64,000 bases of DNA, from positions 1-64,000 of the forward strand of contig JAGCUR010000018.1 in assembly GCA_017962745.1 (NCBI GenBank). The letters run 5' to 3'. Below are positions 10,653 through 38,831 of the stretch, one piece after another. This DNA comes from Bacilli bacterium (GTDB lineage Bacteria; Bacillota_I; Bacilli_A; ML615J-28; CAG-698). Both the position numbers and the translations under genes were made by a program. The notes under the pieces are model-generated. The model made no database searches. It was given only the letters and a program-made list of their open reading frames with translations, and had not been told where the DNA came from. Position 1 is the first letter of the stretch; each line of letters opens with the position of its first letter.

Positions 10653-10756
10653 AGAGATCCCGCCTTAACAGCGGAAACGTTGAAAAACCGCGTATTAAAA
10701 TACTTCGTCTACTTTCTACTCCCAGAAAGTAGCACTTAACGCTTTTCAACTACTCT
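10653..10756 (-). promoter_or_regulatory. Tetrahydrofolate (THF) riboswitch
   Basis: Read on the minus strand the leader begins AGAGTAG, contains the conserved GCGTTAAGTG, then GACGAAG, CGCGG, CAACG and CCGC elements, and closes with CTCT pairing to the first AGAG (P1). This order is the THF (folE/folT) aptamer. The aptamer starts almost at the predicted +1 and ends seven bases before the GGAGG ribosome site, which suggests control of translation start. Confidence 0.9.
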
Positions 10757-10765
10757 GTTAATAAC

Positions 10766-20342: not shown

Positions 20343-20447
20343 GATTTAAAGCAGGATTATATATTTTTTAAAAAAACCGATTATTTAGGGCTAAAAATAT
20401 TGGAAAAACCGAAAATATGTGATAAATTGAATGTATGTTAAACTTTG

Positions 20448-20476
20448 TTGTAGCCAATTTGTGCTCAGTTTATAAT
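20448..20476 (+). promoter_or_regulatory. Promoter of the CotH-like gene
   Basis: TTGTAG (20448-20453), 17-bp spacer, TATAAT (20471-20476). This lies inside the longer open frame and supports the downstream GTG start. Confidence 0.72.
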
Positions 20477-20500
20477 AGATTAAAAGTTAAGGAGGAAGTT

Positions 20501-22141
20501 GTGAAGAAGTTTATTTGTCTTAGTGTTATAATATTACTACTTATATTTATTTTTGCTTGCTCTAATGAACATGGTCATGTTCATGAATTTAACCAACAGT
20601 TAGAGACTGAAGAGTATCTAAAAAGTAAAGGCACATGCACTGATTACGAAGTGTATTATTATTCATGTGCATGTGGTGCTAAAGGAACTGAAACATTTGA
20701 AGGTACTTCTAAAGGTGAACACGATTATGAATATATAACAATTGGTGAAGTTGGTCATGTGGAGTATTATGAATGTAAGCACTGTCATAAAACTAATAAG
20801 TTAGAACTTCCAAAGATTAATATTAATACTAATGGAGAAACAATAACTGATGATTATATTGCTACTAATATTAGTGTTTCAAGGTGTCTAGATGAATATA
20901 AACTAACCGATATTCCCGCTTCTGTTAAAATTAGAGGTAATGGCTCAGCTGAATATAATAAAAAGCCATTCAGGATTAAATTTGACACTAAACAGGGCAT
21001 GTTAGGCTTAAATGATGGCCTTAAAGCTAAAAGCTGGGTATTAATTAATGAATATAATGATAGATCAAGAATGCGTAACTTTGCCGCTTACTTTATCTCT
21101 AATTATTTATTTAATCACGATGGCTATTATTCTACCGATATGAGGTTTGTAGAAGTATATATTAATGATATATACAATGGTATTTATTTACTAGCTGAAC
21201 AGCAGCAAGTAAATAAAGGTAGAATTAACATTAATGAACCCGATAAAGACTATACTGGTACTGATATTGGTTATTTAATTGAACTAGATACATATTATTA
21301 TGAAGAAATAGAATTAGAAACATTTGCCATCGATTATAAATATCCACTTAAATATACTAATGGTAAATCATGTTCACTAAGAAAATTCCAAAACCATTAC
21401 ACGATTAAAAGTGATGTCTATAGTATGGAACAGAATAACTTCATCAAAAATGTAACTGAGAATATCTTCTTTATCTTATATGATACGCTAAATATTACTC
21501 ATGATACTTACTACTATACTTTAGATGATAATTACAACTTAGTTAAAGATCATACTATTACATCACAAAAAGAAGCAGTAGAAAGAGTATTAGATTTAGG
21601 ATCATATATTGATATGTTTATCATTCAAAACATTGCCCAAAATGTAGATATTGGTTGGTCTAGTTTCTATTTAGCATTTGATGCCAGCGCTAAAGGTTCT
21701 AAAAAGTTAATTTTCGAAGCTCCTTGGGATTTTGATTGGGCGATGGGATCATGTTATCCGTTTAAAGAAGGAATGTTTTGCATTGACCAAGATACAAGTG
21801 GAAGAGATACTACCCTTGCTGATTATGTAAATCCATGGATGTTATTATTTGCAAACTGCGACTGGTTCTTAGATTTAGTAAAAGAAAGATGGAACCAGTT
21901 ACAAAAAACTAGTTGCTTTGATGATTTATATCTAGCAATCGATATTTTAACTAATGATTATTCATCATACTTTGCGCAAGAATTTGCTAAATATCCTGAT
22001 TCGCTAACTAAAGTATTAGATAGATCAAAAGCAACTCATGAATATACTGATAATACAACCCACTATACATCTGCTATGTATTTAATGAATTATATTATCC
22101 AGTTTGAACAATACTTTGATTCAATTTGGCTAGATAAATAA
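20501..22141 (+). CDS. CotH-kinase-family lipoprotein
   Basis: About 546 residues from GTG 20501, which has GGAGG five bases upstream; the upstream in-frame ATG at 20435 precedes the promoter. The N terminus KKFICLSVIILLLIFIFAC is a lipoprotein signal with a lipobox Cys. Residues about 20-100 contain spaced Cys/His pairs (CACG, CKHCH) like a zinc ribbon. The rest matches CotH: KIRGNGSAEYNKKPFRIKF, YNDRSRMRN, NGIYLLAEQ and EAPWDFDW. CotH is an atypical protein kinase of spore coats; homologues in non-sporulating gut bacteria are cell-surface proteins of unknown substrate. It is monocistronic. Confidence 0.9.
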   Translation: MKKFICLSVIILLLIFIFACSNEHGHVHEFNQQLETEEYLKSKGTCTDYEVYYYSCACGAKGTETFEGTSKGEHDYEYITIGEVGHVEYYECKHCHKTNKLELPKININTNGETITDDYIATNISVSRCLDEYKLTDIPASVKIRGNGSAEYNKKPFRIKFDTKQGMLGLNDGLKAKSWVLINEYNDRSRMRNFAAYFISNYLFNHDGYYSTDMRFVEVYINDIYNGIYLLAEQQQVNKGRININEPDKDYTGTDIGYLIELDTYYYEEIELETFAIDYKYPLKYTNGKSCSLRKFQNHYTIKSDVYSMEQNNFIKNVTENIFFILYDTLNITHDTYYYTLDDNYNLVKDHTITSQKEAVERVLDLGSYIDMFIIQNIAQNVDIGWSSFYLAFDASAKGSKKLIFEAPWDFDWAMGSCYPFKEGMFCIDQDTSGRDTTLADYVNPWMLLFANCDWFLDLVKERWNQLQKTSCFDDLYLAIDILTNDYSSYFAQEFAKYPDSLTKVLDRSKATHEYTDNTTHYTSAMYLMNYIIQFEQYFDSIWLDK

Positions 22142-22188: not shown

Positions 22189-22244
22189 TACATACAAATA
22201 TGCATATATTTTTATTTCTATTAATGGTTAAATAATGCTTCTAG

Positions 22245-22253
22245 TGTTATAAT
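22245..22253 (+). promoter_or_regulatory. Extended -10 promoter of the racemase-like/HD operon
   Basis: TGTTATAAT at 22245-22253, about 20 bases before the AAAGGA region; the -35 at 17 bp (TGGTTA) is poor. Confidence 0.6.
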
Positions 22254-22282: not shown

Positions 22283-23083
22283 ATGGCTAATAATATTTCC
22301 TCAATTGGTGTTTTAGATATTAATTATTCTTCAATTAGCGTTTTAGATAAACTAGCTAATGATTACCCTAATGAAGTAATTTATTATTTAAATGATTTTA
22401 ATGGCGCTAATTTTGATGAATGGAGCCATAAAGCCATTTTAGAAAAGATTAAAGAAGATACAAATATTTTGTTATCTTACAATCCTAAACTATTAGTAGT
22501 GTTAGGAAATGAATATATTGAATATGCGAAAGAATTCTTTTCGGAATTAGAAGTCCCAGTTATTAATCTAGTAGATATAATTGTGGATATGCTAAACCAA
22601 GAATATGAAAAGAAAAATATCGCATTATTAATTAAATCAACTATTCACCAAGCGAACCTTTTTCAAAGAAATATAAATTATGGTCATTTCTATTTAATTG
22701 ATGATGACGATTTAGAAAAAATCGTCATTAACAATAAAGTAAAGACTGGTATTTCTTTTGATGTTGCTAAGAAGGTGTTAGCTGATCTAGCCCGTAAGAG
22801 CGTTGATGTTATCATCAGTGCTAACTGTAATGTGGGCTTACTTAGTGTAGAAGCAAAAGAAAGTGTTCCTAAATCTAATTTAGTAAATGTTTCTTCACTA
22901 GTTTCAAAAAAGATTGAAGGTTGCCTTGATACGAATGATTCCATTCGTACAAATGGCAAAGGAAAGGTAAATATAATAGCTGATAAAGAATTTGATTTAA
23001 ATATCGCTAAGAATTTACTCGATTGTAAATATTATATTTTACCTAAACATGAAATTGATAATAAGAAGAGAGGTACAAAATGA
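22283..23083 (+). CDS. Glutamate-racemase-fold protein without the catalytic cysteines
   Basis: 266 residues. Its course follows MurI: SSIGVLDINYSSISVLDKL (MurI: IGVIDSGVGGLTV), NPKLLVVLGNEYIEYA (MurI: VIACNTATA), VPVINLVDI, KKNIALLIKSTI and VDVIISANCNVGLL (MurI: LILGCTHYPIL). In this alignment both catalytic Cys and the first Asp/Ser motif are replaced. Racemase activity is therefore unlikely; it may be a ligand-binding or regulatory relative. Its TGA overlaps the start of the membrane HD protein (ATGA), so the two probably act together. Homology is read by eye and is moderate. Confidence 0.65.
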   Translation: MANNISSIGVLDINYSSISVLDKLANDYPNEVIYYLNDFNGANFDEWSHKAILEKIKEDTNILLSYNPKLLVVLGNEYIEYAKEFFSELEVPVINLVDIIVDMLNQEYEKKNIALLIKSTIHQANLFQRNINYGHFYLIDDDDLEKIVINNKVKTGISFDVAKKVLADLARKSVDVIISANCNVGLLSVEAKESVPKSNLVNVSSLVSKKIEGCLDTNDSIRTNGKGKVNIIADKEFDLNIAKNLLDCKYYILPKHEIDNKKRGTK

Positions 23084-24381
23084 GAAAATATTTGCCTTTA
23101 ATTAAAACATGTTTCGTTTTAGCATTAATACTATTGACTTCAATTATCGCAATCGTATTAATTGCTTATACTGGCACATTAAAGAATGATTATGCTGCTG
23201 GTAACGATATTACTAGCGCTTTAGCTGATGTTCAAGGTAGCGCAGCTATGGTTTTAGTATTTTTAGTTATTTTACTTGCATCAACTGCTTTTATTTTAAT
23301 TGATGTATACGTTAAAGAATCTGATCGTAACTATACTACTCAGCTTCAACAGTTAATTGGTTCTATCGACCAACAAACTTCACCTGATAAGATTGAATTT
23401 TATGCTGACCGCTTAATTAAGTTTGTAGCTAAAACTGCTATTAGACAAAAATCATCACTTAAGACAGTTTATGCAGGCTTACATGATATGTATTTAATCA
23501 AAGCGATGAAGTCTGAAGAAGAAATGAAGAAGTTTAAAGACTATATGGCAATCTTAGTTAAAGCATATGCCGAAGGTAATGGTATGACTAGTGCCTATAG
23601 CGGTAATAAGATTCAAAAGATCGCAGAAGCTGCTGCTTTATATGATATTGGTAAACTTGCTATCCCAGGTTACATCTTATATAAAGAAACAGTATTAACA
23701 AAAGAAGAATATGATATCGTTAAAAAGCATGTTAAGTACGGATATGATTTAATTCAAGCAATTAAACCAGATTGTGCTTTAGGTTCATTTGAACAATATG
23801 CAAGAGATATCGTAGGATACCACCATGAAAGATATGATGGTAAAGGTTATCCTTACGGCCTAATCGGTGATAACATTCCATTCTTAGCTAGAGTTGCTAC
23901 TTTAATCATGACATATGAAGCTGTCACTAAAGAGCGTCCATTCAAGAAACCTTTATCTCACGAAGAAGCAGTACTTTTAATTAACAATGAAAAGAATCGT
24001 CAATTTGACCCTAAAGTTGTTAAGGCATTTAATGGTGTTGAACAAGAGTTCAAACGTATTAAAGAAAAGACTAAAGGTGCTGGTATCAACGCAAGACATC
24101 GTCAAATCGTTGACATTGACCTTGTTGAAGACAACAAGTTAACTGAAGAAGAAAAGAAGGTTGAAGTTGTTGCTCCAAAAGAAGAACACATCGATAAGAA
24201 TGCTATCGAAGTTGAAGCTCCTGGCGTAACTAAGAAAGAAGAAGTTAGCGCTGAAGACATCTACAAGCAATATGGTATTGAAGTACCAGTTAAAGAAGAA
24301 AAGCGTATCAAGCTAGAAAAGAAGAATAATGCAAGCGCTGATGACGACTTTATCGAAATGGATGTTAAAGAAGATAAATAG
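23080..24381 (+). CDS. Membrane-anchored HD-GYP-like protein
   Basis: 433 residues. Two transmembrane helices (about 7-30 and 58-78) flank a short external loop. Residues about 130-320 form an HD-GYP-type domain: YDIGKLAIP (about 188), KKHVKYGYDLI, GYHHERYDGKGYPYGL and the final DP.V..F region. HD-GYP enzymes hydrolyse cyclic di-GMP. Here the HD dyad is YD, so one metal ligand is changed while the GYP block is kept; activity is uncertain. The C-terminal 110 residues are charged, Lys/Glu-rich and low complexity. It is translationally coupled to the racemase-like gene. A GGDEF protein lies at 58.1 kb. Confidence 0.8.
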   Translation: MRKYLPLIKTCFVLALILLTSIIAIVLIAYTGTLKNDYAAGNDITSALADVQGSAAMVLVFLVILLASTAFILIDVYVKESDRNYTTQLQQLIGSIDQQTSPDKIEFYADRLIKFVAKTAIRQKSSLKTVYAGLHDMYLIKAMKSEEEMKKFKDYMAILVKAYAEGNGMTSAYSGNKIQKIAEAAALYDIGKLAIPGYILYKETVLTKEEYDIVKKHVKYGYDLIQAIKPDCALGSFEQYARDIVGYHHERYDGKGYPYGLIGDNIPFLARVATLIMTYEAVTKERPFKKPLSHEEAVLLINNEKNRQFDPKVVKAFNGVEQEFKRIKEKTKGAGINARHRQIVDIDLVEDNKLTEEEKKVEVVAPKEEHIDKNAIEVEAPGVTKKEEVSAEDIYKQYGIEVPVKEEKRIKLEKKNNASADDDFIEMDVKEDK

Positions 24382-24422: not shown

Positions 24423-25304
24423 TTATCTTTTAGCAGCCTTAAGTGTTTCTGGGCTAGCTTTTTCCATTTGTGCGATCATTTGCTCTACTTTATCAGCGTT
24501 AGAATATGACCAAGTGTATGGTAGGTTTTCAAAATAGTCACCTGTTTTGAATTTCGTTGGGTGATATTTTAGTTCGCCTGTTTGTTTGTAGTTACGATAT
24601 GTATCTATTAATTCATAGAAGTCACAAGTGAACTTCTCTGTATTAACTCTATATACGTTTCTACTATACTCAAATATATCAGCAATATTGTTATTAGCTA
24701 AGAATGTACGAAGTGAAAAGCATGCTACATGGAAGTTATTCATTAGCTTTTTATCATCAAGGGCATCTGGCCAAATATCATCGGCAATTGCCATCCAACC
24801 AATTGATTTACCTTGATTATTAACTAAATATGCTAATAATTCTTTAGCTTTAGATAAGTTAAAGTTAAGAAGTTTGCCATTTACGAAAATATCAAATCCA
24901 CCAAAGCATCTAATAAAGATTTTAGTTTGTGGATCTTGAGGCATTCTTTCGTTAATCTTATCGATTGTTCGCTCTAATCTAACTTTAGATACAGGTTTTA
25001 AGCAATAATCGATAGCATTTAATTCAAATGCTTCAATTGCATATTGGCTATATGCAGTAACAAATACGATTTGAATTTTTGGATATAATTCAATTACTTC
25101 TTGAGCAAGCTCTAGTCCAGTCTTACCAGGCATTTCAATATCCATGAATACAACATCTACATCTTTATTCTCAGATAAGAACTTCATGAATAATGCTTGA
25201 TCGTTGAAAGCACCAACAACTGTAACATCTTGGAATGCTCTTAAATGAAAGGCTAGGTTCTCAACCGCTAATCTTTCATCATCAATTAATACTACATTTA
25301 TCAT
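24423..25304 (-). CDS. Response regulator: receiver plus OmpR/SARP-type DNA-binding domain
   Basis: 293 residues. Receiver domain 1-120 with acidic pocket IDDE, phosphorylation site D55 (VFMDIEMPG), VTAYS and KPVS. After a short linker, residues about 128-225 look like the winged-helix domain of SARP/BTAD regulators (RCFGGFDIFVNGK...KAKELLAYLV..WPD...NNFHVACFSLR...); the last 70 residues are a partial BTAD-like helical tail. SARP regulators bind tandem direct repeats beside promoters. Its kinase is probably the LytS-type protein at 26454-28304. Promoters at 28.4 and 29.3-29.4 kb carry matching 11-bp repeats. Confidence 0.87.
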   Translation of the reverse strand: MINVVLIDDERLAVENLAFHLRAFQDVTVVGAFNDQALFMKFLSENKDVDVVFMDIEMPGKTGLELAQEVIELYPKIQIVFVTAYSQYAIEAFELNAIDYCLKPVSKVRLERTIDKINERMPQDPQTKIFIRCFGGFDIFVNGKLLNFNLSKAKELLAYLVNNQGKSIGWMAIADDIWPDALDDKKLMNNFHVACFSLRTFLANNNIADIFEYSRNVYRVNTEKFTCDFYELIDTYRNYKQTGELKYHPTKFKTGDYFENLPYTWSYSNADKVEQMIAQMEKASPETLKAAKR

Positions 25305-25541: not shown

Positions 25542-26378
25542 ATGAACGCTGAAGAAATCAAAAAAGTTGAAAAGACTAAGAAAATTATAAATACAGTTAT
25601 TACAGTAGTGTTCGCCGTATTCATGGTTCTAATCTTAGTATTTGTAATTGTTCAATTACAAATGAAAAAGAATGTAGAAAACGGATTACCTAATGCATTC
25701 GGTGTTAGTTTCGTTAGAGTAGAGTCTGACTCTATGGCGAGTCAGTACGCTAAAGACTTAAACGAAAAGAATAACACAAATGAATATGGTAAAGGTTTCG
25801 ATAAGGGCGATATCATTGTAGTAAAAGCTTTAAAGAATGCAGAAGCTGTTAAAGCATATGGATTAAAAGTTGGCGATATAATTACTTATCGTGGTACAAT
25901 AGTACAAAATGATACTGTTGTAGCAACATTTATTACCCATAGAATCGTAAGTATTGATGAAACAAATTTAGTTGTATTTACTCAAGGTGATAAGCAAGTT
26001 TCATTAAACGTTGAGGATCAGCCTGCTACTAGAGTATATTTTGATGAAATCGCAGGTGTTTATAAGAGTAACATCAGATTTAAAGGCTTAGCTGATTTCA
26101 TGGATTCTAAATGGGTATTCTTTGTATTCATTATTGTTCCACTACTATTATTCTTAATGTTTGAAATCTTTAGTTTTATTAAAGCATTAAAGAATTATCG
26201 TAGTGAACAAAAACAACTTGAAGCTAGTCCTACTTTAGAAGAGGCTGAAAAGACTTCAGCTGATCTAGAAGCACAGCTTGCTGCTTTGCAAGCTCAACTA
26301 GCTGCTAAGAAGGCTGAAGAAGCTAAAGCAGCTGAAGAGGCTCCTGCAGAAGAAAATAATACGCCTGAAGGTGAATAA
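25542..26378 (+). CDS. SipW-type (ER/archaeal-type) signal peptidase I, first copy
   Basis: 278 residues. One N-terminal membrane helix (about 15-42), catalytic Ser in RVESDSMASQ (about residue 64), then the ER-type His in THRIVS (about 132) where bacterial type enzymes have Lys. A second helix (about 190-215) and an Ala/Glu coiled tail follow. Such Ser-His peptidases, like Bacillus SipW, process TasA-type matrix proteins with YAW/YAF signal ends. It lies between the two genes of a two-component system on the opposite strand, and several likely substrates lie downstream. A 60-residue insertion-like stretch between Ser and His is longer than in the second copy. Confidence 0.92.
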   Translation: MNAEEIKKVEKTKKIINTVITVVFAVFMVLILVFVIVQLQMKKNVENGLPNAFGVSFVRVESDSMASQYAKDLNEKNNTNEYGKGFDKGDIIVVKALKNAEAVKAYGLKVGDIITYRGTIVQNDTVVATFITHRIVSIDETNLVVFTQGDKQVSLNVEDQPATRVYFDEIAGVYKSNIRFKGLADFMDSKWVFFVFIIVPLLLFLMFEIFSFIKALKNYRSEQKQLEASPTLEEAEKTSADLEAQLAALQAQLAAKKAEEAKAAEEAPAEENNTPEGE

Positions 26379-26453: not shown

Positions 26454-28304
26454 TTAATTACTTTTAGTGTTATCGTATGTTAGGCTTTTCTTTGGAATAG
26501 TAATTGTTACTACTGTTCCAACACCGATCTTTGATTCTAGTTTAATTGTTCCATCTAAGTATAGGCTTAATCTATCTTTGATGTTATTAAATCCAACACG
26601 TTTAGAATCTTTTAATGTTTCAATATCAAATCCTAAACCATTGTCTTTAACTCTAATGTAAACGTTCTTTTTATCTTGATAAGTAGATAAGATGATTACA
26701 CCGCCACCAACTTGTTTTGATATGCCATGCTTTACGGCATTTTCAACAAGTGGTTGAACAGATAGTGGTGGGATCTTAATATCTGTTACACCTAAATCAT
26801 AGATGCACTTGATATTATCACCGAATCTAGTTTGCTCGATATTGATATAAGTTTTAATGTGATCAATTTCATCTTCTAGATTGATAAGATTTGGCATCTT
26901 ATTGAATTCTAGTCTATTTCTTAAATAGAATGAGAATTCTTCAACAAGTTCACTCGCTTTTTCTGGGTTAGTATTACATAATGATTGAATTGAGTTTAAT
27001 GTATTATAGATGAAATGTGATTGAATTTGTGAATTCAAGAATGTGAATTCAGTATCTCTAATCTTATCTGTTAATTCTTTAGTTAAACTTGATTGTTCTG
27101 CGTCTTTTTCTCTTAAATATGAGTTAAGTACTGTTAACATGATACAAGCAAGTAAGAATACTGTTGATAAAGAAGAAGTATTATAAGTTGCTATAGGTGA
27201 TAGCAAGAATATTTCATAGAAGTAACATAATATTGTTTCAACTAAGAAGAATGTAATTGTAATTTGTAATGTTGGTTCTTTTGGAGAATTCTTCAAATAT
27301 TGAATAGCTGAATAAATTAAACCCCCAATTGCTACTACACATACAGCAATGAATAAATAATTAACATATTGAACTGGAGTAAATATTCCAGTTGCTACAA
27401 CTACAACATTTGATCCTAAGAAGATATATTCAGTAATTCCAAGTTTCTTTTGACAAATATCAGTTCTAGCTAAAACAGCATAAACTGTTGTACAGCCAAA
27501 GTAACAGAATAGTTTAACTAATTTCTCAATTGTTCCTGGAAGTGGTGGAATTGCTAAGAATGTTGTTTGACCATTAAACAAAATGGCACCGATTGTAGAT
27601 ATATTTAAAAAGGCTAATAATAGGTTTCGCATTATGTTTCTTCTAGAGAAACATAATAATAAGAAATACAAAGTAAGTAATGAACAAATTACAACACCAA
27701 TTAGATAAACTGATTGGAAACTAAATATACTAAAGTGACCAGCAACACCATCTAAATAAAAATCACTTACGAATGCATAATATGCTTCAGAATTATTAGC
27801 AAGTTCTACAACTATTTCTAATTCATCATCTTCGTATGCATATGGTTGATTATAACCATCTAGGATAACTTTATTACCATCTTTAGTTACTAAATAGTTA
27901 TCAGCTCTAACAAGCTGACCATTGAAATAAACTGCATAACCTTTTAGGAATGAATTTGAGCTGCAAGCTAAAATCTTTCCTTTAGGAATACCATTAACTA
28001 CCATTCTATAAGAATAATAGTTAGTAGTAGAACCTTTCTTTAAACTCTTAGTTAAAGAAGAAAGATAATTTTTTTCTAATGTATTGATATCTTTGTTTTC
28101 TGATATGATTAGGGTATCTTTATAAACTTCCCAATCACCAGTGATGATGTATGGGTCATCATCATTAAATTTGATGATTTCACCAACCCCATCTGTGCAT
28201 TTAACTACTTTTGTGTTGATGCTTATTATGTCAGCTACTAGCAATCCAAGCAAGATTACACTGGCTACCACAATAATAATTGTTGTTATGGTTTTTGATC
28301 TCAT
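26454..28304 (-). CDS. LytS/YesM-type membrane sensor histidine kinase
   Basis: 616 residues. An N-terminal helix (about 8-28) leads to an extracellular domain of about 165 residues, followed by seven transmembrane helices (about 195-395), the 7TM-DISM arrangement for sensing an external ligand. Then a short coil and the HisKA_7TM/LytS-type catalytic part: phosphoacceptor His about 425 in NSQIQSHFIYNTLNSI, N-box PLVENAVKHGI, G1 VKDNGLGFD and GFNNIKDRL. It probably phosphorylates the response regulator at 24423-25304, from which it is separated by a plus-strand sipW gene. TTTACA-17-TATAAT lies upstream. Confidence 0.93.
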   Translation of the reverse strand: MRSKTITTIIIVVASVILLGLLVADIISINTKVVKCTDGVGEIIKFNDDDPYIITGDWEVYKDTLIISENKDINTLEKNYLSSLTKSLKKGSTTNYYSYRMVVNGIPKGKILACSSNSFLKGYAVYFNGQLVRADNYLVTKDGNKVILDGYNQPYAYEDDELEIVVELANNSEAYYAFVSDFYLDGVAGHFSIFSFQSVYLIGVVICSLLTLYFLLLCFSRRNIMRNLLLAFLNISTIGAILFNGQTTFLAIPPLPGTIEKLVKLFCYFGCTTVYAVLARTDICQKKLGITEYIFLGSNVVVVATGIFTPVQYVNYLFIAVCVVAIGGLIYSAIQYLKNSPKEPTLQITITFFLVETILCYFYEIFLLSPIATYNTSSLSTVFLLACIMLTVLNSYLREKDAEQSSLTKELTDKIRDTEFTFLNSQIQSHFIYNTLNSIQSLCNTNPEKASELVEEFSFYLRNRLEFNKMPNLINLEDEIDHIKTYINIEQTRFGDNIKCIYDLGVTDIKIPPLSVQPLVENAVKHGISKQVGGGVIILSTYQDKKNVYIRVKDNGLGFDIETLKDSKRVGFNNIKDRLSLYLDGTIKLESKIGVGTVVTITIPKKSLTYDNTKSN

Positions 28305-28399: not shown

Positions 28400-28443
28400 T
28401 TATATCAATATTAATCATTGGTTAATAGTCTATATAGTATAAT
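28400..28443 (+). promoter_or_regulatory. Promoter with 11-bp tandem repeats (site 1)
   Basis: TTAAT cores start at 28411 and 28422, with a degenerate TTATA at 28400, all in 11-bp steps. TATAAT starts at 28438, 16 bases after the start of the last core. There is no proper -35 at 17 bp. The same geometry recurs at two promoters downstream, so this is probably an activator-dependent promoter. Confidence 0.75.
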
Positions 28444-28476
28444 GTTGTTAGAATAAGTAAAAAGGGGTGGTGCATT

Positions 28477-29253
28477 TTGGCATTATATAAGAATCCAAAG
28501 GCAAGAATGGTCGCACGTATCGTAATCTTTTCTACAAGCGCCATTATTGCAATCATGTTACTTCTTTCATATTATGGATTAAATGTAGGTACATTTACTG
28601 TTGTTATTGATAACGAACAACAAACATCAGCCGAAATGTTGTTAAGTGAAACTGCTGATTTCAAGAAGACTTCACAAAGATTAAATGCAGTTCAAGCACT
28701 TGACCTAGATTGTCTAGGAGTAGAAGACTACGAACTAGTTGCAACTAATCCAGAAATAAAGGACGATATTCCTCAAGAAATATTAGCACAATTAGAAGAT
28801 TTAGTTGGTGGTAGTCAAAACCAAGAAGGATATTTCTGTTATACATTCTATGTATTAAATTCGGGCAATACTAATTTTGATTATACGATGGACCTAAACA
28901 TTAACTCTACAAAGAATAATGCGGATGCAGCTATTCGTATAATGTTAGTATGGGATCGCGAATATAATAATGAAAAGAGTGGTATTGAAGATATTCGTAA
29001 GGTGTATGCGAAAGCTCAAGGTAATAAACCTGGACAAACACCAAATGCTTTAGATTATTGTTCTGACGACAGATTTGCAAGTTCTACTAAGATCTTTACA
29101 GAAAGTAGATATTTCTTCACTGTAGGAAGTGTAGACAAAGTATCTATTCTAATGTGGATCCACGGATGGGATGATGATGCAACTGATGAAGTTAAGAGCG
29201 GTAAGATAAGATTAACATTAAGATTAAGAATTACAGATGTTTTGATTAATTAA
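28477..29253 (+). CDS. TasA/camelysin-like membrane-anchored or exported protein
   Basis: 258 residues starting at TTG, with GGGGTGG six bases upstream. One membrane segment (about 14-38) ends in LNVGTF. The mature part has the pattern of TasA-type jelly-roll proteins: FCYTFYVLNSGNTNFDYTMDLNI, then a strand set and a C-terminal VSILMWIHGWD motif also seen in the next gene. It has no clear YAWF signal end, unlike its neighbours, so it may remain membrane-bound as an anchor. It is expressed from its own repeat-bearing promoter and closed by a terminator. Function is inferred from fold pattern and context. Confidence 0.7.
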   Translation: MALYKNPKARMVARIVIFSTSAIIAIMLLLSYYGLNVGTFTVVIDNEQQTSAEMLLSETADFKKTSQRLNAVQALDLDCLGVEDYELVATNPEIKDDIPQEILAQLEDLVGGSQNQEGYFCYTFYVLNSGNTNFDYTMDLNINSTKNNADAAIRIMLVWDREYNNEKSGIEDIRKVYAKAQGNKPGQTPNALDYCSDDRFASSTKIFTESRYFFTVGSVDKVSILMWIHGWDDDATDEVKSGKIRLTLRLRITDVLIN

Positions 29254-29276
29254 TTTAATCAAAACATCCTTTTTTT
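29236..29276 (+). terminator. Terminator of the first TasA-like gene
   Basis: GATGTTTTGATTAA (29236-29249) pairs with TTAATCAAAACATC (29255-29268), followed by CTTTTTTT. The stem includes the end of the coding region. Confidence 0.9.
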
Positions 29277-29285
29277 ATAGGTATA

Positions 29286-29329
29286 TTAATGATTAATTAA
29301 TAGTTGGTTAATGTATTGTGTATTATAAT
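29286..29329 (+). promoter_or_regulatory. Promoter with 11-bp tandem repeats (site 2)
   Basis: TTAAT cores start at 29286, 29297 and 29308, in exact 11-bp steps, with TATAAT at 29324, again 16 bases after the last core. The last unit GGTTAATGTAT is identical to that at site 3. Confidence 0.82.
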
Positions 29330-29383
29330 GTAATTGTAAATAAGTGATACGGATATGGTGTTTACAAAAACCTTAAATATCGG

Positions 29384-29427
29384 TTAATACTGAATTAATA
29401 CTTGGTTAATGTATTGCTTGGTATAAT
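29384..29427 (+). promoter_or_regulatory. Promoter with 11-bp tandem repeats (site 3)
   Basis: TTAAT cores start at 29384, 29395 and 29406, in exact 11-bp steps, with TATAAT at 29422, 16 bases after the last core. It stands 98 bp downstream of site 2, so the following gene has two such promoters in tandem. Confidence 0.82.
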
Positions 29428-29491: not shown

Positions 29492-30673
29492 ATGAAAAAT
29501 CTTAAAAAATTAGTTATCGCAAGTTTTATGTTAGTGATTGCATTCGTTGCAGTAGTATCTTCAACATATGCATGGTTTACTCAAGGACAAGATGCTAAAG
29601 TATCTGAAATCTCAATTGGTGTTGTTGATGCAAGCAAGTCTATCTTAATCAGTAAAGATAATAGCTCATGGGTTAGAGAACTTGATCTTGGATTTGATGG
29701 AAAGATCACTCCAGTAACTATGAATGCTACAGCAAGTGGTTCAGATTTCACTAATCCAGTATTCTACCAAATTGTTTGGGATGACGAACTTATTCCTTCA
29801 TATGGTGACGCTGTTGAACTAGTTGAAAATACTGATAGCGATTACGAAAGCTTTGTTCAATGCGAAGCTACAGATGAATTCGATGAAACAGTTATTTATT
29901 ATGTAGAAGATAGTGAAGCTGAGAGTGGCTATTCTGCAATTGAAATCGATGAAGATACATTTGATGCTGCTCCAACTACTTATTATACTAACAACGCTGA
30001 CAAAGCAGGTTACATCAAATTTGATTTATACTTCCAAATCAATGTTGCTAATACAAGCGAATGGGATGGAACAAAGTTACATATGGATTTAACAGGATTA
30101 AAAGCATACGATCTTGATCCAACAACTGGCGAATTAAAGAAATTAAATAATGAACCTATTAATAATGAAGATGCAGTTAGCAGCTTTAGAATGGCTGTTT
30201 TAAGTAATGGAAAACTAGTAAAAATTATTGAAAATCAAGTTGCTGATATTGACAGTGAAGCTGAAGGTGATCAAAACGATGGTAGATATGGTGTTGGTCG
30301 TCAATTCAATATCAACAATGCATGGATGCAAAAAATGTCAAATGCAAGCGAAAATGATGTTCATACATTTGTTGCACCAGATGCTGCTACAAACGCAACT
30401 AAATATGAATTAAAGGCAAAATATAACGAAGATGCTTACAGCTTAACTGCACCACACAATGTTGCTACAGGTGCTGGTAATTATGAATACTTTTTATCAA
30501 TCGAAGGTTCAGATACAGTTGCTGATACAGCATTATTCTGGAAATCTGATGATGGATTAACAAGAACTTATAAACTTACTATTTATGTATGGATGGAAGG
30601 CTGGGATGGCGACAATGTAAATGCTGCTGCAAGTTGTCAATACCGCTTCGGTTTATCCTTTCGTGCAGAGTAA
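29492..30673 (+). CDS. SipW-dependent exported protein, TasA-like
   Basis: 393 residues. Signal peptide about 1-30 ends SSTYAWFTQGQD, the SipW-type cleavage pattern. The mature part starts VSEISIGVVDASKS, continues with long acidic loops (about 120-165, Asp/Glu-rich) and ends with a strand group holding IYVWMEGWDGD and FGLSFRAE, shared with other proteins of the island. Very strong ribosome site (AAGGAG). Two tandem repeat-type promoters precede it, suggesting high and regulated expression, as for a major structural fibre subunit. Assignment as subunit is inference; the export signal is clear. Confidence 0.82.
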   Translation: MKNLKKLVIASFMLVIAFVAVVSSTYAWFTQGQDAKVSEISIGVVDASKSILISKDNSSWVRELDLGFDGKITPVTMNATASGSDFTNPVFYQIVWDDELIPSYGDAVELVENTDSDYESFVQCEATDEFDETVIYYVEDSEAESGYSAIEIDEDTFDAAPTTYYTNNADKAGYIKFDLYFQINVANTSEWDGTKLHMDLTGLKAYDLDPTTGELKKLNNEPINNEDAVSSFRMAVLSNGKLVKIIENQVADIDSEAEGDQNDGRYGVGRQFNINNAWMQKMSNASENDVHTFVAPDAATNATKYELKAKYNEDAYSLTAPHNVATGAGNYEYFLSIEGSDTVADTALFWKSDDGLTRTYKLTIYVWMEGWDGDNVNAAASCQYRFGLSFRAE

Positions 30674-30835: not shown

Positions 30836-32368
30836 ATGGCGGCTTTTGCAAGATATTTTCTTGAATTATTTGCTCAAATATGGAGAGATATCGTAGAGTG
30901 GTTTAAAGGGTTATGGACTACATTATTCGTTAATGTATTCAATAACGTTGTAGTTTATTTCCGTGATATCCTTGGAAACTATAAAAGAGATTTTGGATTC
31001 ATGGGTTGGCTACTATGGGTATTCTCTAGTTTATTAATCATAGCATTAATATCATTTATATTCTTTAGATTATATTTATTAATCAGAAAGTATATAATTG
31101 TTCGTAAAACTGAAATTGAGAAAGATGATTTAAGAGAAGAAATAGCTATTTTAAATGAAAAGGTAGCGCAAGCTATTAGTGAAAAGAATAGTATTTTAGC
31201 ATTAAAGGTTTCACAATATAATGGTACAGCTCCTATCACTCAAGCATACGGCGGAAGTTCAGGAGCACCTGACACTAGTGATGCTAGATTCTCTAAACTT
31301 GCTGCTATTGATGCTAAATATGGCGGAAGTATTCAAGAAATCAATATGACTATTGATGACATGGTAACACTTCCTGAATTAATTCAAAGATTCTTAGACT
31401 ATTCATGCTCAAGATTACACCTTTACTACAAAGCACCTACAATTAGATATTTCTTTGCTTCAATGGCTTGTAGTAAGATCATAATTCTTGAAGGTGTATC
31501 TGGTACTGGTAAAACATCACTACCTTATGCCATGAGTAAGTTCTTTAAGAATAACGCAGAAATCGTATCTGTTCAACCATCTTGGCGTGACAGAGCCGAA
31601 CTTCTTGGTTATTTAAATGAATTCACTAAGAAATTTAATGAAACTGACTTCTTAAAAGCAGTTTATGAAGTATTATATCGTAAAGATATTAACTTCATCG
31701 TACTAGACGAAATGAACTTAGCCAGAATCGAGTACTATTTCGCAGAGTTCTTGTCAATCATGGAAATGCCTGATCCATCTGAATGGAGAATTGACTTAGT
31801 ATCTAACGTACTTGATGATGACCCTAAGATGTTAATCAACGGTAAACTACTAGTTCCTCAAAACGTTTGGTTTATCGGAACAGCCAATAAGGATGACTCA
31901 ACATTCACGATTACCGATAAGGTATATGACCGTGCTATGCCGATCGAGTTCTTAAAGAAAGGTGAAGCATTTGAAGCCCCACCTACTGATCCAATCAATA
32001 TGAGCTATGAATACTTAGATAACTTATTTAGACAAGCTAAAGAAGATTATCCAGTATCACAAGCATTACTAGAAAAGTTTGAAAAGTTAGATGAATATAT
32101 GATTGATCATTTCAAACTAGCATTTGGTAACCGTATCTTAAAACAAATCTATGAATTCATTCCTGTATTTGTAGCATGCGGTGGAACAGATTATGATGCA
32201 CTAGATTATATGCTAGCTCGTAAAGTATTAAGAAAATTTGAAAGTTTGAACTTAGCTTTCTTAAAAGATGAATTAGGAGAGTTGATATTAGAGTTAGCTA
32301 AGAGATTTGGTAAAGGTAAATTACCTGAATCAACAGAGTACATTAAGGCTCTACAAAAGATGGTATAA
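30836..32368 (+). CDS. Membrane-anchored McrB-like AAA+ NTPase
   Basis: 510 residues. Amphipathic N terminus, one membrane helix (about 56-82), a coiled coil (about 90-125), a linker, then an AAA+ domain: Walker A EGVSGTGKTSL (about 220), Walker B FIVLDEMNLARIEYY (about 286) and GTANKDDSTF (about 348), matching the McrB GTPase signature (M)NxxD. McrB proteins are GTP-driven rings that work with a DUF2357/McrC partner, usually in DNA restriction. Here the ring is tethered to the membrane, the partner follows 59 bases downstream, and all neighbours are export genes. A cell-envelope role is therefore plausible but unproven. Confidence 0.87.
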   Translation: MAAFARYFLELFAQIWRDIVEWFKGLWTTLFVNVFNNVVVYFRDILGNYKRDFGFMGWLLWVFSSLLIIALISFIFFRLYLLIRKYIIVRKTEIEKDDLREEIAILNEKVAQAISEKNSILALKVSQYNGTAPITQAYGGSSGAPDTSDARFSKLAAIDAKYGGSIQEINMTIDDMVTLPELIQRFLDYSCSRLHLYYKAPTIRYFFASMACSKIIILEGVSGTGKTSLPYAMSKFFKNNAEIVSVQPSWRDRAELLGYLNEFTKKFNETDFLKAVYEVLYRKDINFIVLDEMNLARIEYYFAEFLSIMEMPDPSEWRIDLVSNVLDDDPKMLINGKLLVPQNVWFIGTANKDDSTFTITDKVYDRAMPIEFLKKGEAFEAPPTDPINMSYEYLDNLFRQAKEDYPVSQALLEKFEKLDEYMIDHFKLAFGNRILKQIYEFIPVFVACGGTDYDALDYMLARKVLRKFESLNLAFLKDELGELILELAKRFGKGKLPESTEYIKALQKMV

Positions 32369-32427
32369 TCTTTTAAATTAGAACTAATTTTTTAATAGAT
32401 ATAAATAAATATGGAGGATCTTGACAT

Positions 32428-35013
32428 ATGGCAGGACAAAAAGTTGATTATGCAAAGAAGTATTTGGAGAAGGTCAACAGTAAGCTCGTTGCTGTAGATG
32501 GCCAAGATCCTTTTTACGAATTTTGTAGTAATGCAATAAACGGTGGAGATAATATTCTCTTCCAAAAATATAGAATGGAAACAAGACTATTTGACTTCGA
32601 CTGGATTAACGCAGTAGAAGATTCTTTGGATAAGATTGATAACATCATTAGAAATCCAAAATCATTCATTAAAGAAGATCAAGAAGTTGTTCCAATTGAA
32701 AAAGCTAAAAGAACAGGCTATGAAGCTGTTAAGCATCTATCAAGCCATTCACAATTTGTGAAAGAAGTTACACCTGATGGTTTTATTAGACCTTCTAAGA
32801 TTTTAACTTCTGAAAGAAACATTGATTATGCAATCTATGAAAATAGATTCGTTAAGACATTACTTTTAAAACTAGTTCCATTCGTAGAAAAAAGATATGA
32901 TGCACTAGTTAAACTAATGAATTCAGATTATTTCAATAAAATGAATTCAAAATCCAAATTTAACTTCAATGGTACTGATGTAGAGTACGAACTAAACATG
33001 AGTATCCATCGTAAGATTAACGATGGTGATAAAGCTGAACATAATGCTTTATTACTAGAACGTGCAAAAATAGTTAGACAAAGGGTTATGGGCTTCTATA
33101 CTTCAGAATTTATGGCTAACTTAGCCAGTGCTCGTGAAGTATTCCCACCAATCCAAAGAACTAATATTTTAATGAAGGAACCTAACTACCATAAATGTTA
33201 CCAACTATGGGCATACATTGCGGAACAAGGTGAATTCAAATATGAAATAGATGTTAAGGAAGCAGAAGTTGACTTCTCTAGAGAATATAAAGAGCAAGTT
33301 AAGCACTTAACATTACTTGCTTATGCTGTTTCTGCCGCAAACGACCCTGCGTTTGCTAATGCAGCCTTTGATAAGAATGTATTTGTTCCAATTAAACCAA
33401 AAGAAATGAAGGTTTTAAAGGATCTTGATGAAGAAGCTAGAGATAATAGCTTAAAGATGGAAACAGATATCATCAATGAATTCTATTATCAAGAAGCAAG
33501 AAAATTATATCGTAAAAACATTGATTCAATGGTTAATGATGGTGAACCATATCATATCGCTCTAAAAGATGTATACATGCAATCTACAAAGATTACCGAT
33601 GCCATCTTTACTAGCTTACTAGAAGTACCAGATGATGTTAAGGATTCACCAGTAGCCTTACTAAGATTCAAGAAACGTAAACTTGAAGCATTCAAAGCCA
33701 TCATTAAGTTCAAAGAACAAGATATGAACAAATGGCGTAAGGCTCAGAACAAATTAGAAAATGATATTATTAAAGATACAGTTAAAGCTAATATCGCTTT
33801 AGGTATTAAAGACAAAGAAACTCTTGAAAAAGAAAGAAAAGCAGCTGAACAAGTATTAGCTAAAGAAAGAGCTAAGGAAGCTGCAAGACTTAAGAAAGAA
33901 GCTGAAAAGCAAAAAGCTAAAGAAGCTATCGAAAAAGCTAAAGCTAAAGAAGCTGCTAAGAAAGCAAAAGAAGCAGAACAAGCAAGACTTGCTAGAGAAG
34001 CTGCTAAACAAGCTCGCGAAGACGAAAGAATTCGTAAAGCTATGGAAAAACAAGAAAGAGAAAGATTAGCAGAAGAAAAGAGATTAGCTAGAGAAGCTGC
34101 AATGGCTGAAAAAGCTAAATTAGCTGAAGAAAAGAGACTTGCTAAGGAAGCTGAAGAAGCTGAAAAAGCAAGAAAAGCTGAAGAAGCTAGAATTGCTAAA
34201 GATTCTATTGAAAGAGAAAAGAACAATAAAGCTGTAGCTGAAGCTAAAGCAGCAGCTATTGCCAAAGAAAAAGCTGAAAAAGAAAAAGCAGAAAAAGAAA
34301 AGAATAAACCTAAAGAAGAAAAGAAAGAAGATTATTATAGCGACTTAGTAGATATGTTCGAATTTGGTGTTGCTCCTGAAAAAGAAGAGGAACAAGAACC
34401 TGAATTTGCAGAACAACCTATTGAAGAACCTGCTTCTGAAGAAGTTCCTGAAGAACAACCTCAAGAAGCTGCTCCTGAAGAACCAGTAGCTGAAGAAGCA
34501 CCAGTTGAAGAAGCACAAGAGGAAGCTCCAGCTGAGGAAACTCCTGAAGAACAACCTCAAGAAGAAGTTCAACCTGAAGAACCTCAAGAAGAATCAGTTG
34601 AAGATGCTCCAGCAAGTGAAGAACCTACTGAAGATCAACCTGAAGAGCCTCAAGAAGAATCAGCTGAAGAGGCTCCAGCAAGTGAAGAACCTACTGAAGA
34701 TCAACCTGAAGAGCCTCAAGAGGAACCAGCTGAAGCTGCTCCAGTAGATGAAGAACCTGAAGCTGAACAAGCTGAAGAAATTCCAGAAGAAGCTCCTGCT
34801 GAGGAAGCATCTGAGGAACAACCTTCTGAGGAAACTCCAGAGGAAGAACCTCAAGAAGAACCTAGTGAAGAACAACCTGAGGAAGAATCAGAAGAACAAA
34901 ATGATGAACCTCAAGAAGATAAAGCTGAAGAAGGTAGTGAAGAAGATAAACCTAGAAGAAGGGGATTATTTGCTAATCTATTCGGTAGAAGAAATAATGG
35001 TAATGAAGAATAA
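32428..35013 (+). CDS. DUF2357-like partner with coiled coil and acidic repeat tail
   Basis: 861 residues. Residues about 1-460 contain the DUF2357 landmark NIDYAIYENRFVKTLLLKL (about 130-148) and helical segments. Residues about 470-640 are an uninterrupted Lys/Ala/Glu coiled coil. Residues about 650-840 are Glu/Pro-rich with 22-residue repeats. The last 20 residues are basic (KPRRRGLFANLFGRR). Many DUF2357 proteins end in a PD-(D/E)xK nuclease; I see no such motif. It is probably the substrate or scaffold arm of the AAA+ protein encoded upstream. Its stop overlaps the second sipW start by one base. Confidence 0.78.
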   Translation: MAGQKVDYAKKYLEKVNSKLVAVDGQDPFYEFCSNAINGGDNILFQKYRMETRLFDFDWINAVEDSLDKIDNIIRNPKSFIKEDQEVVPIEKAKRTGYEAVKHLSSHSQFVKEVTPDGFIRPSKILTSERNIDYAIYENRFVKTLLLKLVPFVEKRYDALVKLMNSDYFNKMNSKSKFNFNGTDVEYELNMSIHRKINDGDKAEHNALLLERAKIVRQRVMGFYTSEFMANLASAREVFPPIQRTNILMKEPNYHKCYQLWAYIAEQGEFKYEIDVKEAEVDFSREYKEQVKHLTLLAYAVSAANDPAFANAAFDKNVFVPIKPKEMKVLKDLDEEARDNSLKMETDIINEFYYQEARKLYRKNIDSMVNDGEPYHIALKDVYMQSTKITDAIFTSLLEVPDDVKDSPVALLRFKKRKLEAFKAIIKFKEQDMNKWRKAQNKLENDIIKDTVKANIALGIKDKETLEKERKAAEQVLAKERAKEAARLKKEAEKQKAKEAIEKAKAKEAAKKAKEAEQARLAREAAKQAREDERIRKAMEKQERERLAEEKRLAREAAMAEKAKLAEEKRLAKEAEEAEKARKAEEARIAKDSIEREKNNKAVAEAKAAAIAKEKAEKEKAEKEKNKPKEEKKEDYYSDLVDMFEFGVAPEKEEEQEPEFAEQPIEEPASEEVPEEQPQEAAPEEPVAEEAPVEEAQEEAPAEETPEEQPQEEVQPEEPQEESVEDAPASEEPTEDQPEEPQEESAEEAPASEEPTEDQPEEPQEEPAEAAPVDEEPEAEQAEEIPEEAPAEEASEEQPSEETPEEEPQEEPSEEQPEEESEEQNDEPQEDKAEEGSEEDKPRRRGLFANLFGRRNNGNEE
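34582..34779 (+). repeat. 66-bp tandem repeats in the acidic tail
   Basis: Units starting at 34582, 34648 and 34714 encode a 22-residue acidic Pro/Glu/Ser period. The first two are nearly identical in DNA; the third diverges. Copy number is likely to vary by slippage. Confidence 0.8.
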
Positions 35014-35675
35014 TGAATAAGGTACGTAATATTGTTGTTGCTATTCCTGCTATTATCTTCGTATTAGCAATTATTCTAATCTTTAAAATATCTTTCTCTT
35101 TACAAAAAGGTGAAGTACCAAAAGTATTTGGCCTAACTTTTATGGAAGTTCAAACTGGAAGTATGGAACCTAATATTCACCAATATGACTTTATTATTAA
35201 TAAAGCCAAGAAGGAATATAAGGTTGGAGATGCTGTATCATTCTATTATGATTTAAACGGTGATGGAAAAGATGAATCAGTAACTCACAGAATTATATCT
35301 TTTAATAATGATGGCACTATCACCTTAAAAGGTGATGCTGCTGTATCAGATACAGATATCCAAGTTATTACTAGTAATCAAATTATTGGTAAAGTAATTT
35401 ACAGAAGTAGTAGAATAGGTAAATTATTTACTACTAATATCTTTAAGAATCGTAACTTCTTGTTTATGTTCTTAATTGGGTCTTTAATTATTTTCATGAT
35501 TTATCAATCATTTAATATCTTTAAGTTATTAAAAGAAGATAAGAAATTAGAAAATGAAGCAGTAGAAGAACCTACTGAAGAAGTAAAAGAAGAACAAAGT
35601 AGTGAAGATATTGAAGCTGAGATTGCAAGGCTTCAAGCTAAGCTTAAAGAAAAAGAAGAGGAAAAGAATGAATAA
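35013..35675 (+). CDS. SipW-type signal peptidase I, second copy
   Basis: 220 residues. N-terminal helix (about 8-30), catalytic Ser in EVQTGSMEPNI (about 51), His in VTHRIIS (about 91), second helix (about 150-172), then an acidic coiled tail. It has the Ser-His dyad of ER-type peptidases. It is shorter than the copy at 25.5 kb and closer to classical SipW. It overlaps the DUF2357-like gene at its start and trmL at its end, so it belongs to the AAA+ operon. Exported substrates follow from 36.3 kb. Confidence 0.92.
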   Translation: MNKVRNIVVAIPAIIFVLAIILIFKISFSLQKGEVPKVFGLTFMEVQTGSMEPNIHQYDFIINKAKKEYKVGDAVSFYYDLNGDGKDESVTHRIISFNNDGTITLKGDAAVSDTDIQVITSNQIIGKVIYRSSRIGKLFTTNIFKNRNFLFMFLIGSLIIFMIYQSFNIFKLLKEDKKLENEAVEEPTEEVKEEQSSEDIEAEIARLQAKLKEKEEEKNE

Positions 35676-36263: not shown

Positions 36264-37085
36264 GTGGGCTTTTTTAGAAAATTTAAGATTTTAATTCCTA
36301 GTTTAATAGCTATGTTTATAACATTAGCTATGGGTGCTACTGTGGCAATCACTTATGCCTGGAGTACAACCAATAGAAATGTTATTGGGGAAGGTGACAC
36401 AGTTAATGTTAACTTACCTCTAATCGTTTTAGCATCAGATAGTTACGAACCATTAGAAGATCAAACTACTATTGCATTTTCTGATTTAGAAGCAAATGGT
36501 TTTGGTGTTAGTATTAACTTTAGTCCGCTAAATGTATTATATCCTGCTACAACTAATGATGGGATTACATTTAGATATGCTACTAATGTAGATACAAATG
36601 GTCAGTCACTACCTGCTACTGATAACATTGATACATATGAGGCCGTTGATGCTTTATATGAAAGATATTTCTTCTTAGAAAAATCGTTTTATTTAGTATC
36701 GGCTTATACTCAAAATGTATCAGTATATTTAAGTTCTGTTGAGTTTTATGCAGGTACAGAAAATAGTAGCTTATATAAATCGATTAGACTTTGTGCTACT
36801 TGCGGAAACACTAAATGTATCATTAGTGATAATGATGGTCAGGCATATCCTGCAAATGGCCCAGAAACGGTTGCAAGTACGGACCCAGCAATTAGAGCAT
36901 CAAACATTGGAAGAAGCACATTTATTGTTAACCTACCAGCAATGCAGAAGGATGAACAAGATAATTATTACTGCACACCAGTATTAGTTACTTTTAGAAT
37001 TTGGATTGAAGGCCAATCACCATATGCAGTTGTTGCCTATTCAGGACATGCATTTGGTGTAAATGTTGATTTTGATATTAGATAA
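36264..37085 (+). CDS. SipW-dependent-type exported protein
   Basis: 273 residues from GTG, with GGAAGGAGG upstream. The signal segment (about 8-33) ends in AITYAWSTTNR. The mature part is rich in Thr/Ser/Tyr, has a CATCGNTKC cysteine cluster near 175, and ends with VTFRIWIEGQSP...FGVNVDFDIR, a variant of the WxEG closing motif of the other island proteins. No sorting signal or second helix. No clear promoter between the terminator and the gene; the three following genes are close enough for one transcript. Function unknown; a minor fibre component is one option. Confidence 0.75.
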   Translation: MGFFRKFKILIPSLIAMFITLAMGATVAITYAWSTTNRNVIGEGDTVNVNLPLIVLASDSYEPLEDQTTIAFSDLEANGFGVSINFSPLNVLYPATTNDGITFRYATNVDTNGQSLPATDNIDTYEAVDALYERYFFLEKSFYLVSAYTQNVSVYLSSVEFYAGTENSSLYKSIRLCATCGNTKCIISDNDGQAYPANGPETVASTDPAIRASNIGRSTFIVNLPAMQKDEQDNYYCTPVLVTFRIWIEGQSPYAVVAYSGHAFGVNVDFDIR

Positions 37086-37123
37086 ATAAAAATATTTATT
37101 AAAATATTTGGAAAGGAGTATGG

Positions 37124-37948
37124 ATGAGAAAAGAAATAATTAGAAATTTTGTTTTCTTGGCTATAACTGGTTTATTTCTTTTAGCTATTTTAGTAATAGT
37201 TGTTATGCCTAAGACTAGAGCTTGGCTATTAGAAAATAAACACGTAGATGTAGATTCTCATCTCATCTATGCGATTAACCAAGGTTATGGTGATGACTTA
37301 GTATCACTAAATAACTTATCAAGAATTTATCAATCAAGTGATGAAACAGTAACTCAAGTTACTTTCATCCCTGGTGAACAAGTTTATTATACATTCGTAT
37401 TTAAAGTAGCTGCTAGCGACTATATCGCTAGTAAAGCTGATTATCATGCAAGCTTAGTTATAAGAGGTGAAGCAAGAGAGACTGCTACTGCAAATTCAGG
37501 AGATTATTTATCGTTTCTCCATGACTGTGCGGTTTTAGAAGATTCTTGTTTATTTGCAGTTTTACACCGTGGTGAAACAGCAAACGGTGAGGATACGATT
37601 ATTTATTATGATATTGTTAAGTATCATAACGAAAATGGTACTTATTCAATTAATGAAGAAGGCGAAATATCTGCTTTTAGCAGTGAAACAACGGGGGCTG
37701 TTTTAAGCAATGATGCAGTTGAATCATTCTGTCCTGATAAAACAACTAGCTCAATTGGAGCTGAGTTTGATGTAACGATTCCAATTGTTCCAATTAGTAA
37801 TGATTTACTTTATCATGAAGCCGGTAATGATTACATATTCTTTATGTTATATGTACAAATTACTTATATTGATACTGGTATTAATCAAAATGAACAAATG
37901 GATTCAACTCTGACTATTAACGGATCAAGTTTACTTTGTAAAAACTAA
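37124..37948 (+). CDS. Exported or membrane-anchored protein of the SipW-type island
   Basis: 274 residues. Hydrophobic segment about 10-30 followed by PKTRAWLLENK, a weakened SipW-type end. The mature part has strand-like segments (QVTFIPGEQVYYTFVFKV, VTIPIVPISND, IFFMLYVQITYIDTG) as in TasA-like jelly rolls. AAGGAG precedes ATG; 38 bases after the previous gene, 27 before the next. I recognise no family beyond the context. Confidence 0.65.
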   Translation: MRKEIIRNFVFLAITGLFLLAILVIVVMPKTRAWLLENKHVDVDSHLIYAINQGYGDDLVSLNNLSRIYQSSDETVTQVTFIPGEQVYYTFVFKVAASDYIASKADYHASLVIRGEARETATANSGDYLSFLHDCAVLEDSCLFAVLHRGETANGEDTIIYYDIVKYHNENGTYSINEEGEISAFSSETTGAVLSNDAVESFCPDKTTSSIGAEFDVTIPIVPISNDLLYHEAGNDYIFFMLYVQITYIDTGINQNEQMDSTLTINGSSLLCKN

Positions 37949-37975
37949 GAATAAGTAATTTGGAAGGAGGAAAAT

Positions 37976-38821: not shown

Positions 38822-38831
38822 AGGTGAAGCG

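Follow-up and report, generated by a model that had tools for sequence, protein, structure and literature searches.

The window, that is, the whole 64,000-nucleotide stretch of DNA analysed here, contains a kinase-regulator gene pair, two genes for SipW-like signal peptidases and an operon for secreted proteins whose first two genes are preceded by promoters carrying repeat arrays. The genes considered are the following:

23080-24381, + strand, HD-GYP-like protein (PF13487, 1.2e-28), downstream of the array site at 22221; the first histidine of the HD motif reads Y
24423-25304, - strand, response regulator, the proposed binder of the arrays, with receiver (PF00072, 7e-20), OmpR/SARP-like winged helix and short C-terminal BTAD remnant
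25542-26378, + strand, first SipW-like signal peptidase (NF046067, 1.6e-12, below cut-off), with a TTGACA-N17-TATAAT promoter and no array
26454-28304, - strand, LytS-type sensor histidine kinase (PF06580, 1.6e-22; PF02518, 8.6e-10), divergent from array promoter 1, with its own -10 and a TTTACA -35
28477-29253, + strand, first target gene, encoding a secreted protein with a membrane anchor; begins with TTG, 33 nt past the first -10; homologues in 16 of 43 genomes
29492-30673, + strand, second target gene, with N-terminal anchor and STYAW; TasA/CalY-like by context, without family-model match
30836-32368, + strand, McrB-type AAA+ ATPase carrying a membrane segment at its N terminus (PF07728 at cut-off), conserved in the operon
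32428-35013, + strand, large charged/coiled protein, likewise a conserved member of the operon
35013-35675, + strand, second SipW-like signal peptidase (NF046067, 8.6e-14; TIGR02228, 1.8e-13; both below cut-off)

The order of the operon genes (secreted proteins, AAA+ ATPase, charged protein, SipW-like peptidase) is the same in genomes G010 and G018, and the gene of the ATPase has conserved neighbours in G010, G018, G019, G023, G026 and G042. The ATPase and the charged protein (30836-35013) sit between the secreted proteins and SipW in lineages with arrays and in lineages with riboswitches alike. As regards the HD-GYP-like protein, its HD motif reads YD, and the same substitution is found in the G018 relative (L052).

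With regard to a signal peptide of SipW type, direct reading showed an N-terminal anchor and a YAW motif; the model TIGR04088 reached 0.064 in one relative, below its cut-off. The target proteins gave no significant TasA match in Pfam, NCBIfam, the PDB sequence search or the AF2/Foldseek comparison, where the predicted model was of low confidence and the TasA fibre 8aur ranked fifth with an E value of 0.05. Because no significant family or fold match was obtained, the name is kept only as a comparison.

The array promoters of the window, together with one probable further array, are these:

22221-22253, + strand, probable further array, TTAAT-N6-ATAAT-N11-TATAAT with one mismatch; precedes a racemase-like/HD-GYP-like gene pair
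28400-28443, + strand, array promoter 1, units at 28400 (degenerate), 28411 and 28422, -10 TATAAT at 28438-28443; exact genome match; orthologous site in G021
29286-29329, + strand, array promoter 2, units at 29286, 29297 and 29308, -10 at 29324-29329; orthologous site in G021
29373-29427, + strand, array promoter 3, units at 29373 (TTAAA), 29384, 29395 and 29406, -10 at 29422-29427; orthologous site in G021

Direct reading confirmed the layout given in an earlier note on this DNA: TTAAT cores at 28411/28422, 29286/29297/29308 and 29384/29395/29406, a core-to-core step of exactly 11 bp in all three arrays, and a TATAAT (28438, 29324, 29422) that in every case begins 16 nt past the first base of the last core. 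That note had also called the arrays identical, which is too strong, as they share core and geometry and differ in unit number (2, 3 and 4) and in spacer bases; it had missed the fourth unit of array 3, TTAAA at 29373. The unit at 28400 in array 1 is a degenerate TTATA. The note's statement that none of the three has a good -35 holds, since at 16-18 bp only 1-2 of six bases match TTGACA. The corresponding matches in the neighbouring promoters are 6/6 for sipW at 25542 (TTGACA) and 5/6 for the kinase (TTTACA), both of them ordinary promoters with a gap of 17 bp between -35 and -10. The 22221 site is identical at 32 of 33 bases in the sister species G021 despite a diverged upstream flank, and so it is probably part of the array regulon.

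Arrays were then sought by pattern search in the complete 1.54-Mb genome. The pattern TTAAT-N6-TTAAT-N11-TATAAT gave six exact matches, and the reversed-pattern control gave none. When the spacings were varied (TTAAT-N{1-16}-TTAAT-N{4-20}-TATAAT, 272 combinations), 38 matches were obtained in total, six of which fell on the geometry (6,11); the next best combination had three and the mean elsewhere was 0.12, the excess having a P of about 1e-6 after correction. Three exact cores in 11-bp succession are found at four of the six exact promoters and once elsewhere, within a stretch very rich in AT. The six sites are spread over three contigs (C8, which is the window contig, C7 and C15), half of them off the window contig. 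All six lie 33-162 bp upstream of genes for N-terminally membrane-anchored secreted proteins, in which the anchor is mostly followed by a motif of (S/T)(Y/F)AW type; these targets are putative SipW substrates, TasA/CalY-like by context only. A genome scan of this geometry had been proposed beforehand, with arrays scattered away from promoters as the outcome that would count against binding by the nearby regulator; run with two cores, it returned six sites, every one at a promoter position and before one kind of gene. As far as sequence can tell, the arrays mark a coherent regulon.

The comparison was extended to 43 genomes of the order and, for the regulator, to 395 sampled genomes of the class. 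A regulator orthologue is present in five of the 43 genomes, which form one clade, and the search across the 395 class genomes (E 1e-60) found no orthologue beyond these five. With a looser array pattern (TTAA-N7-TTAA-N12-TATAAT), the five regulator-positive genomes have 6, 7, 4, 4 and 5 sites (reversed control 0, 2, 0, 0 and 1), and the other 38 genomes 0-3, close to control. About 23 of the 26 sites in the regulator-positive genomes, including one that qualifies only by being outermost in a tandem set, precede genes for anchored secreted proteins, and three do not; the sites examined in regulator-negative genomes have unrelated genes downstream, none of the anchored secreted kind.

Within the genus the sites are orthologous, and in two other genera there are three-, two- and five-fold tandem arrays of the same geometry. 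G017 and G018 carry TTAAT-N6-TTAAG arrays, three and two in tandem respectively, upstream of the orthologue of the gene at 28477, and in G010 (L084:930-1223) five tandem array promoters lie within 300 bp, three of them with TATACT as -10. Alignment of 28 arrays, orthologues included and hence not independent rows, gives a unit of TTAATRGT plus three bases; counted from the first base of TATAAT, the bases outside the search pattern include T at -20 in 28/28, A at -28 in 79% and A/G at -17 in all. The -35 is poor in all 28. In the sister species G021 an extra anchored-protein gene has its own array (L048:3687-4593), where the window has none.

The claim that the nearby regulator binds the arrays gains indirect support from these data, inasmuch as the regulator occurs in exactly the five of 43 genomes that have an array excess and the arrays mark a coherent regulon; the binding itself stays a prediction. 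Since the five genomes are one clade, the co-occurrence amounts to few independent events and is weak as a count. Stronger evidence comes from unlinked genes of the same kind sharing arrays within each genome and from a geometry that is kept across genera.

Of the genomes that lack the regulator, 11 have the first target gene as well. In the seven leaders inspected there was no array, and in none of the 11 did a match to the looser pattern fall at this gene. Directly upstream of the gene, nine of the 11 have c-di-GMP-I riboswitches (RF01051), one to three each, which in these nine relatives score 56-66 bits against a gathering cut-off of 35; none was found at these operons in the five regulator-positive genomes. 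Several of the riboswitch leaders carry a TTGACA/TATAAT-type promoter, and a GGDEF-EAL protein is encoded just upstream of the riboswitch operon at the three loci checked. Fisher tests (arrays 5/5 vs 0/11, P 2e-4; riboswitches 0/5 vs 9/11, P 0.005) are not taken as main evidence because the five genomes form one clade. In the protein tree, array and riboswitch operons split cleanly with a single change (support 100/99). Judged from these leaders, one operon is wired in two ways, by array promoters or by a c-di-GMP-I riboswitch. Arrays control the operon in a single family, riboswitches in both families of the order, a distribution suggesting that the arrays may have come later. None of the literature matches listed connects c-di-GMP riboswitches with sipW/tasA. 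The riboswitches at L177-L183, L186 and L187 include tandem pairs or triplets in G011, G019, G026 and G041.

As for the regulator itself, the AF2 model (pLDDT 90) shows a receiver, a winged helix in which the beta-alpha-beta order is as expected, and finally a short tail of helix. The receiver residues D8/D9, D55, T83 and K103 are invariant in the five orthologues, and a kinase (PF06580 and PF02518) is encoded nearby, as for a two-component response regulator. The earlier description as a receiver plus an OmpR/SARP-like domain stands for the receiver and agrees with the SARP-type relatives; for the second domain, the regulator alone was below the Trans_reg_C cut-off in Pfam (weak score, 0.21) and had no PF03704 (BTAD) match. 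Its relatives at about 30% identity combine REC, Trans_reg_C and BTAD, that is, they are of SARP type. Its own BTAD is about 70 residues long and aligns to the start of the relatives' BTAD, a complete one having about 146. A joint profile of the C-terminal domain and its relatives retrieved EmbR (4.4e-15) and AfsR (1.6e-8) as best natural regulators, a signal partly due to the relatives' BTAD, which is mostly missing in the window regulator; the best fold matches of the model are OmpR/PhoB regulators. By its relatives, the regulator is a descendant of the REC-SARP lineage, yet, for want of a complete BTAD, it is not a canonical SARP. Given the REC-SARP-BTAD relatives and the EmbR/AfsR profile, it should act as an activator of SARP or PhoB class. 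The neighbourhoods of distant REC-SARP-BTAD regulators (Paenibacillus, Tepidibacter and others) contained no such operon.

Several known systems can be compared with this one. PhoB/OmpR-class regulators use an 11-bp direct-repeat geometry upstream of the -10, and receiver, winged helix and repeats are common to both; unlike that class, the window regulator is below the Pfam Trans_reg_C cut-off, has closest relatives with BTAD and is paired with a kinase of LytS type (PF06580), a type that usually goes with LytTR regulators. The resemblance to SARP promoters that the earlier note had seen in the 11-bp step just upstream of the -10 is borne out by published geometry, in which direct repeats at 11 or 22 bp overlap the -35 and the 3' repeat lies 8 bp from the -10 (PMC10936776). 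The gap from repeat to TATAAT in the arrays depends on register, being 8 bp with the 8-bp unit TTAATRGT and 11 bp with the 5-bp core. In Streptomyces coelicolor a dimer of the SARP AfsR sits on two 11-bp repeats overlapping the -35 and touches sigma region 4 and core polymerase (PMC10936776). Both systems have tandem 11-bp repeats over the -35 position, a poor -35, a strong -10 and a winged helix, besides the AfsR/EmbR profile similarity. On the other hand, the winged helix of the window regulator serves a two-component receiver as its output domain, about 70 residues of the BTAD are left, the core (TTAAT) is rich in AT and the targets are secreted surface proteins instead of antibiotic genes.

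The same logic has a precedent in BsaS/BsaR of Clostridium perfringens, a two-component system whose genes accompany the sipW-bsaA matrix-protein operon and without which that operon is not transcribed; BsaR in purified form binds to the promoter of sipW (PMC7395162). There, however, kinase and regulator are inside the operon and the sipW promoter is the target, whereas here one sipW has an ordinary promoter; neither a repeat array nor a receiver-SARP architecture is described in the text of PMC7395162 on BsaRS. The TasA/CalY-SipW fibres of Bacillus likewise combine a SipW-like peptidase with several membrane-anchored secreted proteins in each genome; they differ in that the present targets have no family-model match and that conserved AAA+ and coiled proteins belong to the operon. 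As to c-di-GMP-I (GEMM-I) control, it precedes the same operon in the sister lineages and is missing from it in the regulator-positive genomes.

From the arrays, the regulon, the co-occurrence and the riboswitch alternative, all of which were read from the sequence, we infer binding, phosphorylation dependence, activation and fibre function. It is likely, in our estimation, that the adjacent kinase-regulator pair uses the arrays as its activator sites and that the phosphorylated regulator takes the place of the -35 and activates putative fibre operons. A cell-surface signal would lead the kinase to phosphorylate Asp55 of the receiver. Regulator protomers, as a dimer or higher oligomer, would then bind the tandem 11-bp units (TTAATRGT plus three bases) side by side on one face of the helix, with the last unit, which starts 16 nt before TATAAT, occupying the -35 place, and the bound protein would bring sigma-A RNA polymerase to these promoters, which lack a -35. 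The regulon would be a group of operons whose secreted, membrane-anchored products are processed by SipW and are most likely surface or matrix fibres; the kinase and one of the signal peptidases have ordinary promoters. Speculatively, extra units or tandem promoters may increase the output.

Other explanations differ in how far they depart from this one. Ordinary OmpR/PhoB-type action through the winged helix alone, with no role for the BTAD, is a variant compatible with it and is a tentative possibility, in line with the OmpR/PhoB fold matches, the reduced BTAD and the fact that PhoB boxes, too, are 11-bp direct repeats near the -10; EmbR and AfsR, however, outscore any OmpR-type chain in the profile, partly through the relatives' BTAD, and those relatives do carry that domain. 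It is rather improbable that the arrays are genuine activator sites read by another clade-specific DNA-binding protein while the adjacent pair controls something else. Regulator and arrays share one clade, in which other clade genes would co-occur equally, and three of the six exact sites are on other contigs; nevertheless, in G000, G021 and G017 the largest array cluster lies next to the pair, and 11-bp direct repeats upstream of the -10 are the known mode of the regulator's family (PMC10936776).

Sites for a repressor or a nucleoid protein, or phased bending of AT-rich DNA, are quite unlikely: helically phased TTAA-rich units could attract other AT-preferring proteins, but activation agrees with the poor -35 in 28/28 arrays and with a strong -10 always 16 nt away, TpA steps differ from A-tracts and other spacings are not enriched. 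An origin of the arrays by chance or as a local duplication artefact has a negligible probability, even though the genome is AT-rich and arrays 2 and 3 are near each other, for it is already contradicted by the empty control, the six sites on three contigs and the conservation in other genera with different flanks; chance or AT-richness as the source was ruled out by the spacing scan and the reversed controls.

Returning to activation by the adjacent pair, opinion is evenly balanced on a further step: that a compact, clade-confined REC-SARP regulator took over the fibre regulon, swapping a riboswitch for two-component promoter control, with the tandem promoters as a possible dial of strength. 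The arrays would offer a testable cis-regulatory code for a putative surface-fibre regulon in an uncultured Bacilli lineage, and would widen the reach of SARP-like promoter geometry to SipW-type secretion under a two-component system. The operon would be a natural experiment, having changed between riboswitch control by c-di-GMP and activation by a two-component system, and SARP-like activation without a full BTAD, if true, would help to show which SARP parts are needed for polymerase contact.

Some further features of the window were recorded. A putative surface protein of 3400 residues with an N-terminal anchor is encoded at 38808-49010, and upstream of it are three anchored proteins (36264-38821) with no array in this genome. 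Near the locus there is a CotH kinase family protein (20435-22141; PF08757, 1.1e-27), and a THF riboswitch (RF01831, 73 bits) lies at 10667-10759 on the - strand.
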